NCBI RefSeq assembly: GCF_027497175.1
Contig: NZ_CP114901.1
Location: 4,650,001-4,714,000 of the forward strand
DNA: 64,000 bases
Source of the DNA: Verrucosispora sp. WMMD573
Lineage (GTDB): Bacteria > Actinomycetota > Actinomycetes > Mycobacteriales > Micromonosporaceae
Direction of reading: 5' to 3'
The notes beneath the pieces were generated by a model. It was not told the origin of the DNA, made no database searches, and was given only the letters and a program-made list of their open reading frames with translations. The position numbers were made by a program, and so were the translations under genes. Of the stretch, positions 46,369 to 50,051 are shown in pieces (position 1 is the stretch's first letter; every line of letters begins with the position of its first letter).

Positions 46369-46527
46369 GCGGCGCAGTATGCCTGGCCCCGGTAACCGAC
46401 CGGTGGCGGGCCGGCGGCCAGCCGGGTAGCTCCCGTCGTCCACACCCCGCCAGTACCCGCTGGTGATTGCCGGATGCCGGACAGTAACCTTCCCGGTTCG
46501 ACCGGAATCGGTCACGATGCCCCGGTG

Positions 46528-47187
46528 ATGGCGTGGCCGAATCCCGCACCGCGACGCGACGACCCGTCCTCGACGCCAGCGGCGCTGACCATCCGCCCGG
46601 TGCATCCGCTGCCCGGGCGCGTTACGCCGCCGCGCCGCCCGGCGACCCGCAGCGTCCCGGCCGGGTTCGGGGCGCTGCTGGTCATCACGCTGGTCGCCGG
46701 CAGCCCCTGGGGATACGACGTGATCCGGGAGCTGAGCGTCAACCTGCCCCGCACCGACGGCCCGGCCGGCATCGTCACGATCGCGGTCGACGCGCTGCTG
46801 CTGGGGCTGTCCTGGCTGCGGTGGGGCAGCCCCGACCCCGCGTCCGGCTACCAACTCGCGCGCACCGCCCAGGTGGCGCTGTTCGTCCTGATCGTGCTGG
46901 TGATGCTGCGCCGGCTGGCCGCGGGCGACCCGCCGTCCCGGGCGTACCGCTTCTTCGCCACCCTCGGTGCGACGGTCGCGGCGGCGGCGCTCGCCACGGT
47001 CGGCGGCGCCCTGGTGCACCTGGCCGTCGACAGCGGCGCCTACGCCGGGTCGGGGATGCGTGCGGAACTGCTCAACGAACTGGTACGGGCCCTGCTGTGC
47101 GGCTTCGTCGTGGGTCTGCTGCTGGCGGCGGTGCCGGCCCGGCGGCACCGGACCCGACCTGCCGTCCCCGGGTTGGGAGGCAACTGA
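46528..47187 (+). CDS. Four-helix membrane protein of unknown function
   Basis: The protein has a proline-rich N-terminal tail followed by four hydrophobic helices (FGALLVITLVAGSPWGYDVI; GIVTIAVDALLLGLSWL; TAQVALFVLIVLVMLRRLA; FATLGATVAAAALATVGGALVHLA and a last LLCGFVVGLLLAAVP, five if the first is counted fully). No family was recognised. Starts at 46525 (GTG), 46528 (ATG) and 46474 (ATG) are all possible; none has a good ribosome site. Only one base separates its stop from the next ATG, so it belongs to the operon with the two motif-sharing proteins and may be their membrane partner (inference). Confidence 0.6.
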   Translation: MAWPNPAPRRDDPSSTPAALTIRPVHPLPGRVTPPRRPATRSVPAGFGALLVITLVAGSPWGYDVIRELSVNLPRTDGPAGIVTIAVDALLLGLSWLRWGSPDPASGYQLARTAQVALFVLIVLVMLRRLAAGDPPSRAYRFFATLGATVAAAALATVGGALVHLAVDSGAYAGSGMRAELLNELVRALLCGFVVGLLLAAVPARRHRTRPAVPGLGGN

Positions 47188-47188
47188 C

Positions 47189-48907
47189 ATGGTGATCCGG
47201 CAGGCCACCCCCGAGGACTCGACGGCGGACCCGACCGACGCCACGAGCGAGGCGACCCGCTACCTGTGTGTGGCGGCGCACACCGACGACACGTTCGCCG
47301 ACTCGGCCCTGTCCGAGGTCTTCGACGACGAGCTCCGGGCGGTGGCGCCCTCGGTCGGCTTCGACCTGACCACCGTGCTGCGGCACTGCCTTGAGGCACG
47401 TCAGCGGCGCATCCGTCGCGACGCCGGCCTGCTCGTCGCCGGCAGCATGGCCGTGCTGCTGGCGCCGCTGTGGACGCTGCAGACCGCGGCGGTGCTGGCG
47501 ATCGGCATGTCGCTGGCCCGGGCCAACCGGCACCGCCCGCTGGCCTCGGTGACGGCGCTGGCGGCGACGGCCGTGGTGTCACTGTGGCTGTTGGCGCAGT
47601 TCGCCGGGCTCGACACCGACAGCGACGGCGGCATGATCAGTTGGATGGTCGGCCTGCCGTGGCTGGCGCTGGTGGCCGGGCTGCTGGCGTACCTCATCCT
47701 GGTGCTGCACCTGCTGGGCACCCGGCAGCTGCTGGTGCAGCGGCTGCGGCGTGGTCACTTCCAGCCCGCGTCACCCGACACCGGCCCGGTGCCGCAGCGC
47801 CTCGCGGCACGCCTGGCCCAGCTCGACACGGCGCAGCACGGCAACGTGACGATCTACAGCGGGTACACGCCGTTCGTCGGGCACGGCGCACCGGTGGCCG
47901 GCTGGTCGTTCGCCCTGCCGATCCACCGGGCCGAACAGCATCTACCCGAACCGTCGACTGCGGTCACCGGCGACGACCCGGACGCCACCGTGCAGTTCGC
48001 CGTGGTGGATCTGATCGACCACGTACGGCGACGACTGGCGGCGATCCGACTCGACCCGGCCGGCGACCCGGAACTGAATCCGGAACGGCTCGCCGGTCTG
48101 GTGCTGGAGGATCGGGTGTTCGTGCACGGCGGGCTGCTGACCGACGATCCGCAGCTGCTGCCCGACCGCGGCCGGATGCCCCGGCAACGCTGGTCCGACG
48201 AGCAGCTGCGGGCGGTGGCGAGCCGGCCGCAGGGCGCTGCCCGGCATTTCCTGGGCGCTCTGGTGCCGTCCTGGGGCGGCGAGGTGGTGGCCTGCACGTT
48301 CCTGCACTTCTCCACCGATGGCCGGGTGCTCTACCTGGAGTGCGCCCGGACGTTGCTGGAGCCGCCCCGCATCGAGTACCACGACGTGGACCGGCTGACC
48401 GAGTGGATCCCGGTGCGTCAGTTCGTCCAGCTGTTCACCGCCGCCGCCGAGCAGTTGGTGCGTACCGCCTTCGGTGCGCCGGTGCGCCTGGTACGCGACG
48501 GCGTCCAGGTGGTGCGGCACCAGATCCGGCAGGCGCGGTCACGCCGGATGGCCCGCGAGGACCTCGGCTACGACTACGGGGCCCGGGCCGGCGTACGGGA
48601 GCTGGCCACCGGCACCACCTACCACAACTATTTCCAGGTGCTCGACGCCGCGAAGCATCTCAAGGTGGTCGAGCGGCACGTGCTGGCCGCCATCGTCGAC
48701 TTCCTGGAGGACAAGGGTGTGGACACCGCCGAGTTCCGCACCCGGCAAACCATGATCCTCAACCAGGGTGTGATCCAGACCGGTGGCCTCAGCGTCGTCG
48801 GTAACCAGGCGGTGGGCGCCGGGGCGCGGGCGGAGCAGCAGAGCACCACGGAGCAGCCGTCGCCGCAGGGCACGAGCCGTCGAGCCGGCACCGGGAGGCC
48901 GTCATGA
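47189..48907 (+). CDS. Membrane protein with C-terminal amyloid-like motif
   Basis: The 572-residue protein has a soluble N-terminal part, three hydrophobic segments (about 80-110, 119-140, 149-177), then a large cytosolic domain with a distinctive NVTIYSGYTPFVGHG segment (219-233). It ends in a helical segment followed by a Gly/Asn/Gln-rich motif at 523-548 (GLSVVGNQAVGAGA) and a disordered tail. The motif recurs almost identically at the start of the next protein. GGGAGG precedes ATG 47189 by 9 nt. No family was recognised. The arrangement looks like a membrane receptor that seeds assembly of its small partner (inference). Confidence 0.65.
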   Translation: MVIRQATPEDSTADPTDATSEATRYLCVAAHTDDTFADSALSEVFDDELRAVAPSVGFDLTTVLRHCLEARQRRIRRDAGLLVAGSMAVLLAPLWTLQTAAVLAIGMSLARANRHRPLASVTALAATAVVSLWLLAQFAGLDTDSDGGMISWMVGLPWLALVAGLLAYLILVLHLLGTRQLLVQRLRRGHFQPASPDTGPVPQRLAARLAQLDTAQHGNVTIYSGYTPFVGHGAPVAGWSFALPIHRAEQHLPEPSTAVTGDDPDATVQFAVVDLIDHVRRRLAAIRLDPAGDPELNPERLAGLVLEDRVFVHGGLLTDDPQLLPDRGRMPRQRWSDEQLRAVASRPQGAARHFLGALVPSWGGEVVACTFLHFSTDGRVLYLECARTLLEPPRIEYHDVDRLTEWIPVRQFVQLFTAAAEQLVRTAFGAPVRLVRDGVQVVRHQIRQARSRRMAREDLGYDYGARAGVRELATGTTYHNYFQVLDAAKHLKVVERHVLAAIVDFLEDKGVDTAEFRTRQTMILNQGVIQTGGLSVVGNQAVGAGARAEQQSTTEQPSPQGTSRRAGTGRPS

Positions 48908-49269
48908 CCACGTCCGACAACTCGATCAACTTCGGTGTCCAGCAGTCCGGTGGGGTGAGCCAGGTCGGCAACCAGGCAGTGGGTCCGGGCGCGCACGCGG
49001 TCGGCGGGGGACTGTGGGCCACGGCACCGGGGGTGGACCTGCCGGCCCTGATCACACAACTGGTGCAGACCCTCGACCGGCATCGTGACGAGTTGCCGGA
49101 GCCGGCTCGGGCGGTGGCCGCGGAGCTGCGGGTCCAGCTGGCGCGGCCGGATCCAGAGCCGGCCCGGGTCACGGCGCTGCTGCGGCGCCTGGCGGCGCTG
49201 GCCGCGCCGGTGGCTCCGGTGGCCTCGGCCGTGACCGAGGTGTTGCGGGCGGTGCAGCAGGCGACCTGA
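48904..49269 (+). CDS. Small protein with N-terminal amyloid-like motif and helical domain
   Basis: The 121-residue protein starts with a motif at residues 7-32 (core GVSQVGNQAVGPGA) that is identical in 17 of 26 positions to the C-terminal motif of the preceding protein. After a short glycine linker there are about 75 residues predicted to be helical (LPALITQLVQTLDRHRDELP..., ARVTALLRRLAALAAPVAPVASAVTEVLRAV). ATG 48904 overlaps the upstream stop (ATGA). The Q-hydrophobic-G-N pattern resembles RHIM and bacterial amyloid-signalling motifs in Gly/Asn/Gln content. The gene ends 3 bp from a converging gene. The function is unknown. Confidence 0.65.
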   Translation: MTTSDNSINFGVQQSGGVSQVGNQAVGPGAHAVGGGLWATAPGVDLPALITQLVQTLDRHRDELPEPARAVAAELRVQLARPDPEPARVTALLRRLAALAAPVAPVASAVTEVLRAVQQAT

Positions 49270-49271
49270 AC

Positions 49272-50051
49272 TCAACCGGCGGCGGGGCGGCGCCGGTGTA
49301 CGCGGCTGAGGTCGACTGGCCGGCTGGGGTCGACGTGGCGGGGGCCTTCGGGTTCGTCCGGCCGCAGCGGGGCCAGGGTGTCGGTGAGCGCGTCGATGAT
49401 CCGGTCGGTGGCCCGGCGGGCCGCGCCGGGCGCGCCGCGGGCCACCTCGGCCAGGTCCACCGGGTCGCCGAAGTGCACCCGTACGGTGGGGCGGCGCACC
49501 AACGCCCGAGCGACGCCGCGCAGCATCCCTTTCGGGGCCTGGTAGGGCAGCACCTCATGGGATCCCCACTGGGCGACGGGGATGACTGGCGCGCCGCAGG
49601 CCAGGGCGAGGCGGGCGGCACCGGTCTTGCCGCGTTCGGGCCACATGCCCGGGTCGAGGCCGATCCGTCCCTCCGGATAGACCAGGATCGGCGCGCCGAC
49701 GGCGACCGCGGCGGTGGCGTCGTCCAGTGCCCGGTGTACGCCGCTGGTGCCCCGGTCGACGCGGATGTGCCCGGCGCTGCGCATCGCGGCCCCGATCAGC
49801 GGAGCCCGGAACAGCCCACCGGTGGCCATGATCCGGGGCGCCACCCGGCGGGCCCGGCAGGCTGCGGCGAGCACGATCGGGTCGAACGGGCTGATGTGGT
49901 TGGCGGCCAGGATCAGCGGCCCGCCGCGCATCCGGGCCGGGATGTCACCGGTGACCTCCAGCCGGGCCAGCATCCCGACGACGACGCGGGCCAGCAGCAA
50001 CGCGACGCGCCAGATCAGCGGCGGGTGCCAGGGGGAGTGGGCTGCTTCCAT
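49272..50051 (-). CDS. 1-acyl-glycerol-3-phosphate acyltransferase-like (PlsC)
   Basis: From ATG 50051 the protein has 259 residues. It carries the acyltransferase motifs NHISPFD (HX4D catalytic pair), VDRGTSGVHRALDD and ILVYPEGRI (PEG motif), preceded by a hydrophobic N-terminal helix, as in PlsC-like membrane-associated enzymes that acylate lysophosphatidate. ATG 50051 is preferred over upstream starts, which overlap the divergent cyd promoter region. Acyl acceptors other than lysophosphatidate are possible. It converges on the small motif protein with only 2 bp between. Confidence 0.85.
   Translation of the reverse strand: MEAAHSPWHPPLIWRVALLLARVVVGMLARLEVTGDIPARMRGGPLILAANHISPFDPIVLAAACRARRVAPRIMATGGLFRAPLIGAAMRSAGHIRVDRGTSGVHRALDDATAAVAVGAPILVYPEGRIGLDPGMWPERGKTGAARLALACGAPVIPVAQWGSHEVLPYQAPKGMLRGVARALVRRPTVRVHFGDPVDLAEVARGAPGAARRATDRIIDALTDTLAPLRPDEPEGPRHVDPSRPVDLSRVHRRRPAAG

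Follow-up and report, generated by a model that had tools for sequence, protein, structure and literature searches.

The locus and its motif pair

The 64,000-nucleotide stretch of the Verrucosispora sp. WMMD573 genome analyzed here (contig NZ_CP114901.1, positions 4,650,001 to 4,714,000; hereafter the window) contains a compact three-gene locus on its forward strand, in which two adjacent genes encode proteins that share a short motif. Gene 1 (46528..47187) encodes a multi-pass membrane protein of 219 residues (P0003), gene 2 (47189..48907) a candidate membrane receptor or sensor of 572 residues (P0001), and gene 3 (48904..49269) an effector candidate of 121 residues (P0002), all as read from their translations. 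A single base separates gene 1 from gene 2, and gene 2 overlaps gene 3 by 4 bp (ATGA). The receptor-side motif (ILNQGVIQTGGLSVVGNQAVGAGARA, residues 523-548, 48755..48832) lies near the C-terminus of gene 2 and the effector-side motif (SINFGVQQSGGVSQVGNQAVGPGAHA, residues 7-32, 48922..48999) near the N-terminus of gene 3; the two are identical at 17 of 26 positions. These motif positions and their identity, together with the overlap and the one-base gap, had been reported in a first-pass annotation of the sequence and are confirmed by the translations.

In a Smith-Waterman comparison, the large and the small protein score 81, against a mean of 36.4 (standard deviation 5.6, maximum 65) for 2000 shuffles of the small protein, and a search of the small protein against the 6.5-Mb genome recovers, at E < 0.05, only itself and the motif of its neighbor. 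In the AlphaFold models, the predicted local distance difference test score (pLDDT) falls below 50 for nearly all of residues 529-572 of the receptor and 1-41 of the effector, and the motifs are therefore predicted to be largely disordered: the start of the receptor motif ends a predicted helix and the rest lies in a disordered tail, while the whole effector motif is predicted to be disordered. The first-pass annotation had also drawn attention to a Q-hydrophobic-G pattern reminiscent of RHIM motifs, which is present in the small protein (Q20-V21-G22) and absent from the receptor core (VVGN). The RHIM core is (I/V)Q(I/V)G; with SVVGN in the receptor and SQVGN in the effector, a RHIM assignment was rejected.

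Motif pairing across the family

The window pair belongs to a larger and diverse family of actinomycetes. Protein searches returned at least 104 relatives of the receptor, and the receptor family is matched in 68 of the 394 genomes of the class at E ≤ 1e-5. At E ≤ 1e-9, the small protein has 12 strong matches in 12 genomes, each of them immediately downstream of a receptor gene. Lentzea flava carries a fused version (P0031), in which one motif joins the C-terminus of the receptor to the small protein. The motif itself varies between pairs, yet the downstream gene varies with it, as in L079, where NSGVLNLGGTNDFTNTTFGDQAQVQNHGS is accompanied by NSGIVNAGGTNSFTNTTFGDQAQVQNHGS, and L041, where STYIGNAEGATFAVGDKSHVSS is accompanied by NVHIGNAQGATFAVGDNANVTS.

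This pairing was quantified by scanning 450 nt at each receptor stop without regard to reading frame; a score of at least 45 defined a partner, and the reverse strand served as control. The scan comprised 93 loci, of which five come from Micromonospora closely related to the window and 88 from the class genomes; L014 (the window itself) and L057 were dropped, and L106 has no receptor open reading frame (ORF). A matching motif was found downstream in 66 of the 93 loci, compared with 2 of 93 for the reverse-strand control (mean score 27.7, highest 47), and in 39 of 45 loci of a non-redundant set without the window. The 27 loci below threshold include four weaker, visible pairs (L023, L024, L025, L030) and three loci without any pair (L035, L096, L103); the remaining 20 form a motif-free clade of receptor paralogues (L108-L110, L117-L133; Streptomyces by inference) with no motif gene behind the receptor. 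This clade is possibly an ancestral or housekeeping form. Judged by match span, many weak genome matches outside the set of retrieved loci may be similar to it.

The motifs co-diverge and are private to each pair. A re-pairing test used 46 non-redundant loci out of 63, after removal of L108, L117, and L123 (motif-free), L057 (a duplicate), and then redundant loci, with ORFs picked by G+C content at third codon positions (GC3), independently of the motif; four of the 46 (L035, L089, L096, L103) represent a wrong pick or hold no pair. Own partners scored 71.6 on average and permuted partners 32.2, with no permuted mean above 40.1 in 20,000 permutations, while composition-shuffled controls averaged 26.2, and receptor tails compared with the remainder of the effector averaged 24.5. 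Fourteen genomes, from a list compiled by hand that may miss some, harbor two or three systems, and own pairs outscored cross pairs in all 32 of the 32 comparisons, with means of 72.6 and 27.1, the cross-pair mean inside one genome being at noise level. Effectors in this comparison, like those of the 69 pairs counted below, were chosen as best matches to their own receptors, which biases the result mildly; two wrong picks, L101 and L127, were removed.

The pairs also share a recognizable architecture. Genes overlap in 43 of the 69, by exactly 4 bp in 29 (taking the most upstream start in range), and the effector motif begins within the first 30 residues in 67. Relative to the receptor body, the motif segments are rich in Gly (19.4% vs 8.2%) and Asn (9.0% vs 1.3%) and low in Leu, Arg, and Pro. 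A profile of 22 motifs run over 197 genomes detected 16 places at E ≤ 1e-4, all within receptor/effector pairs, ten of these being pairs that had lent motifs to the profile; of 11 weaker matches (E 0.014-0.09), at least two fell in pairs (G079, G017). The first-pass annotation had proposed looking for the motif pair in adjacent genes across actinomycetes, and the outcome is strongly positive, extending to pair-private motifs and swapped effector domains; such co-occurrence supports an interaction between receptor and effector motifs.

Codon usage bears on how this matching arose. At identical residues in 42 pairs, 404 of 676 codons are identical, versus 360 expected from codon usage; excluding L079, L092, L105, and L116, a choice made after the values had been seen, the remaining 38 pairs give 322 of 580, versus 307 expected, so that the four excluded pairs account for most of the excess. 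Because codon identity is near the expectation from codon usage, recent copying of DNA does not explain most pairs. Should the two motif copies have parted ahead of the spread of the family, unconstrained drift would have broken the match; either selection for matching or repeated homogenization is then needed, and both would favor physical pairing.

Effectors, receptor, and genomic sites

Behind the motif, effector domains are swapped. Pfam domains were sought at E ≤ 0.01 in 63 of the 69 effectors, of which 13 match DUF5955, ten PNP_UDP_1, and four EAD1. The PADLOC model "Effector, PN-superfamily" likewise matches ten of the 63, presumably the same ten, and two of the PNP effectors resemble methylthioadenosine/S-adenosylhomocysteine (MTA/SAH) nucleosidases in the PDB. 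In Detocs and other systems, nucleosidases of the PNP family serve as immune effectors that destroy ATP. EAD1 domains are described as adaptors recruiting effectors (PMC7159879), and five genomes searched for having EAD1-type pairs contain 7-26 EAD1 matches each, the pair's own included. Among the small effectors, 28 of 49 contain a 19-residue stretch of mean hydropathy ≥ 1.5. Four of the 69 effectors (L032, L034, L084, L089; 179-191 residues) carry a clear second motif copy, against one in the receptor, and recall the two pseudo-repeats of HET-S. Matches to the PADLOC candidate PDC-M14B are weak (at most six of the 63 effectors with any one model; best E 8.9e-5); effectors L104 and L019 weakly match its C-terminal part, hinting that the helical effector domain may also end a larger candidate defense protein.

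The effector of the window carries a predicted four-helix domain (residues 46-120, 49039..49263; helices 46-59, 66-80, 86-99, and 104-120), modeled from an alignment of 16 sequences with a predicted template modeling score (pTM) of 0.56, and a hydrophobic stretch at 96-114. It resembles DUF5955 (PF19380) at E 0.0033 and 18.2 bits, under the curated cut-off of 27.1, which two Kitasatospora homologues, P0126 and P0127, pass with 28.7 and 28.6 bits. The earlier remark that no described family was recognized holds for the receptor, which matched no Pfam, NCBIfam, or PADLOC family, and gives way for the effectors, given the remote DUF5955 relationship here and PNP_UDP_1 or EAD1 elsewhere. Canonical DUF5955 (L164-L175), a stand-alone relative of the effector domain, is a helical protein that lacks the motif and gives a single strong match in each of 34 of the 394 genomes. 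These 34 belong to one genus (g27, inferred from named homologues to be Streptomyces); the 12 strong members that were read measure 94-116 residues by called starts and are all without the motif. In some Streptomyces loci (L040, L041, L077, and L177:4892-5818), the gene behind the effector encodes a Pro-rich protein that starts with a RYWNEETQRWED-like stretch and has a probable membrane segment (judged from an ORF fragment only in L077). This protein is possibly a fourth component of one clade.

The AlphaFold2 model of the receptor has a pLDDT of 83 and a pTM of 0.83, and outside the motif regions the bodies of both receptor and effector are predicted to be well folded. From hydropathy, charge pattern, and modeled helices, its membrane region (residues 79-179, 47423..47725) is interpreted as four helices whose two ends lie in the cytosol, a topology predicted by the positive-inside rule; hydropathy and charges suggest that the motif-bearing tail is cytosolic. 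A cytosolic alpha/beta domain (residues 233-512, 47885..48724) is weakly START/Bet v 1-like or KA1-like: VIA-align gave middling Z scores to START/Bet v 1 and KA1 folds, which we take as a hint only. Foldseek returned nothing for the receptor model in the PDB at E ≤ 0.001, and the best match of the receptor profile to PDB sequences had E 0.15. Pfam found no domain of the NOD-like receptor (NLR) type (NACHT/NB-ARC plus repeats) in P0001, six receptor homologues, or ten distant receptors, and a Walker A-like pattern occurs in three of 95 receptor ORFs, the window receptor being without it.

Gene 1 is homologous to the N-terminal part of longer relatives of the receptor: its residues 40-210 match a profile built from the N-terminal parts of 29 long receptors (44.7 bits), single-sequence BLASTP against those parts being weak (best E 0.001), and in Streptomyces, other long members, and some metagenome proteins, the receptor begins with a fused part resembling gene 1. 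Its hydrophobic segments, by hydropathy, are 79-98, 107-135, 142-168, and 180-206, and an alternative start 54 bp upstream, at 46474, is possible. NCBIfam and PADLOC scans of the three window proteins gave nothing convincing.

The family is patchily distributed. Among 121 genomes of the window's genus, 20 have a member; 12 of these members closely resemble that of the window (≥ 64% identity) and the others are divergent, and the closest homologues of the window proteins, among the matches listed, come from Micromonospora and Verrucosispora. In six carriers checked, a cassette of 2.9 kb is flanked by the same pair of genes, which we take to encode a glycerophosphodiester phosphodiesterase-like and an acyltransferase-like protein; in 12 non-carriers checked, the flanking genes lie about 75 bp to 2.4 kb apart, and the sequence between them has no significant match to the three window proteins. 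The site (46371-49272 in the window; L152-L163) is thus variable in the genus, being nearly empty, filled with unrelated genes, or occupied by the cassette. Relatives were also found in five records of a plasmid collection, of which two are large replicons (1.7-2.8 Mb) and one is an 11.85-Mb record, and in no phage record. In each of the three plasmid-record loci that were read, a matching motif lies behind the receptor: L176 (score 83), L177 (score 64), and L178 (by eye). L176 is carried by the mobilizable plasmid NZ_CP107767 (WP_330294147.1 and WP_330294148.1); this locus (NZ_CP107767.1 59066-67085) lies behind genes annotated as an AAA family ATPase and an ATP-dependent endonuclease, which may be a neighboring defense system.

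Interpretation and comparison with known systems

We propose, with a probability of roughly 0.6, that the three genes form a unit in which a membrane sensor templates a motif-tagged effector, in the manner of the NLR-based systems that signal through bacterial amyloid signaling sequences (BASS), but independently of NLRs and with the motif-bearing ends reversed. The cytosolic domain of gene 2 would sense a ligand, with gene 1 as a membrane partner; activated receptors would then cluster, and their disordered C-terminal motif would become ordered, probably as a cross-beta or amyloid structure. The ordered motif would template its counterpart at the N-terminus of the gene 3 product, whose four-helix domain would thereby be gathered into an active assembly that probably acts on membranes or as an adaptor; in sister systems the same step would activate a PNP_UDP nucleosidase or an EAD1 adaptor. 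The likely outcome would be abortive infection or another form of regulated cell death. The components of this model differ in strength: direct contact between the paired motifs is very probable, their amyloid form is probable, a defense or cell-death role has somewhat better than even odds, and sensing by the START-like domain is tentative. The interpretation offered in the first-pass annotation is, as a whole, partly supported; motif co-occurrence and swapped effectors make its conflict or cell-death role likely.

Several observations weigh against this proposal. In the re-pairing test, the own partner takes first place in no more than 29 of 46 rows and 21 of 46 columns, in part because motifs are shared among close relatives and a number of ORFs were wrongly picked; the window pair itself is third. 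The loci were found with a profile (A2) that includes the tail and so favors motif-bearing members, and some are close relatives. Four pairs (L079, L092, L105, L116) look recently homogenized at the DNA level. Matches to DUF5955, PNP_UDP_1, and EAD1 are lacking in 36 of the 63 effectors scanned, none of the 11 receptors scanned is covered by a PADLOC model, and the motif profile matched no PDB chain at E ≤ 10. The window effector has no recognized toxic domain and no structural match in the PDB by Foldseek at E ≤ 0.001, and a killing role for it would be carried over by analogy from its relatives.

Other explanations can be set against the same evidence. That the motifs are an artefact, either Gly/Asn-rich linkers alike by composition or products of recent local duplication, gains something from their low-complexity letters and from the excess codon identity in four pairs; given the gap between composition-shuffled and own-partner means (26.2 vs 71.6), the near-noise cross score within genomes, and codon identity near expectation in the other 38 of 42 pairs taken together, it is very improbable. 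On the re-pairing, codon, and within-genome tests, we reject linker chance and recent duplication as general causes. A subtler alternative accepts the contact and dispenses with amyloid: pair-private co-divergence requires contact and not an amyloid state, and the motifs might instead pair as a finite beta-structure, such as a beta-solenoid or strand-exchanged heterocomplex, that docks the small protein with no templating or cooperative switch. Gly/Asn turns with alternating hydrophobic residues would also fit a beta-solenoid, and one effector of 63 weakly matches a beta-solenoid repeat model (E 0.0018). We nonetheless regard this as unlikely, since short Gly/Asn-rich motifs in neighboring receptor and effector genes, sometimes doubled on the effector side (4/69), are what the literature describes for amyloid signaling.

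It is similarly unlikely, in our estimation, that the locus encodes a membrane complex with a regulatory or housekeeping function, such as the sensing of envelope lipids in filamentous growth, and with no part in cell death or defense. The START/KA1-like cytosolic fold, the 20-locus motif-free clade, and the ordinary-looking neighbors in the window would suit such a complex; presence in only 20 of 121 genomes at an accessory site, plasmid copies, exchange of the effector for PNP_UDP and EAD1 domains, and insulated paralogues would not. Dozens of receptor/effector pairs are available to probe NLR-independent signaling amyloids; genomes with two or three insulated systems provide a natural test of motif specificity, the motif-free clade a natural control, and the PNP_UDP members a measurable enzymatic read-out.

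Our search of open PMC papers found none on this family. The NLR/Bell signalosomes, with motif families BASS1-10, use short receptor and effector motifs, as described in PMC7889193, PMC8086366, and PMC9815663; for BASS3, proline substitutions are reported to abolish motif-driven foci. Like them, the present family has adjacent or overlapping genes sharing a motif of ~20-40 residues, a receptor and an effector of which the latter is commonly helical, a home in actinomycetes, and many motif families. Unlike them, its receptor is a non-NLR membrane protein, its effector domains are different, and its motif is placed at the receptor C-terminus and effector N-terminus rather than at the NLR N-terminus and Bell C-terminus; the four helices of the window effector and the hydrophobic stretches of small effectors are only a likeness to the Bell domain. 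The family would thus work like a BASS signalosome yet departs from two of its defining features, namely the NLR nature of the receptor and the placement of the motif ends. Fungal HET-S-type and PNP_UDP (PUASM) systems similarly combine receptor- and effector-side motifs, PNP_UDP effectors, and some two-copy effectors; their receptors, however, are NLRs and the effector motif is C-terminal (PMC7889193, PMC9815663). The likeness to the RHIM of RIPK1/RIPK3 (PMC7889193) is loose, consisting of a short Gly/Asn/Gln-rich motif with a V-G-N step, and DUF5955 is a remote relative of the helical domain alone, its strong members being motif-free.

The conflict systems built on effector-associated domains (EADs), including the membrane-associated, two-gene System 4 (EACC1), share the principle that small homotypic modules link cores to swappable effectors in multicellular actinobacteria (Kaur et al. 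2020, PMC7159879), and EAD1 itself stands behind the motif in some pairs here. Coupling here is through a disordered motif and not a folded EAD, and the membrane protein is a different one; the Pfam table of 63 effectors contains no caspase-like or cyclase component at E ≤ 0.01, and one weak CATRA-C match (E 0.0041). A 2021 review asks whether NLR-independent signaling amyloids exist in fungi and bacteria (PMC7889193). We consider it an even chance that the family described here represents such a branch in bacteria: widespread membrane sensors, perhaps binding lipids or metabolites through a START-like domain, that fire diverse effectors (four-helix proteins, nucleosidases, EAD1 adaptors) through pairwise co-diverging motifs, so that paralogous systems within a cell are insulated from one another by a private, prion-like motif code.

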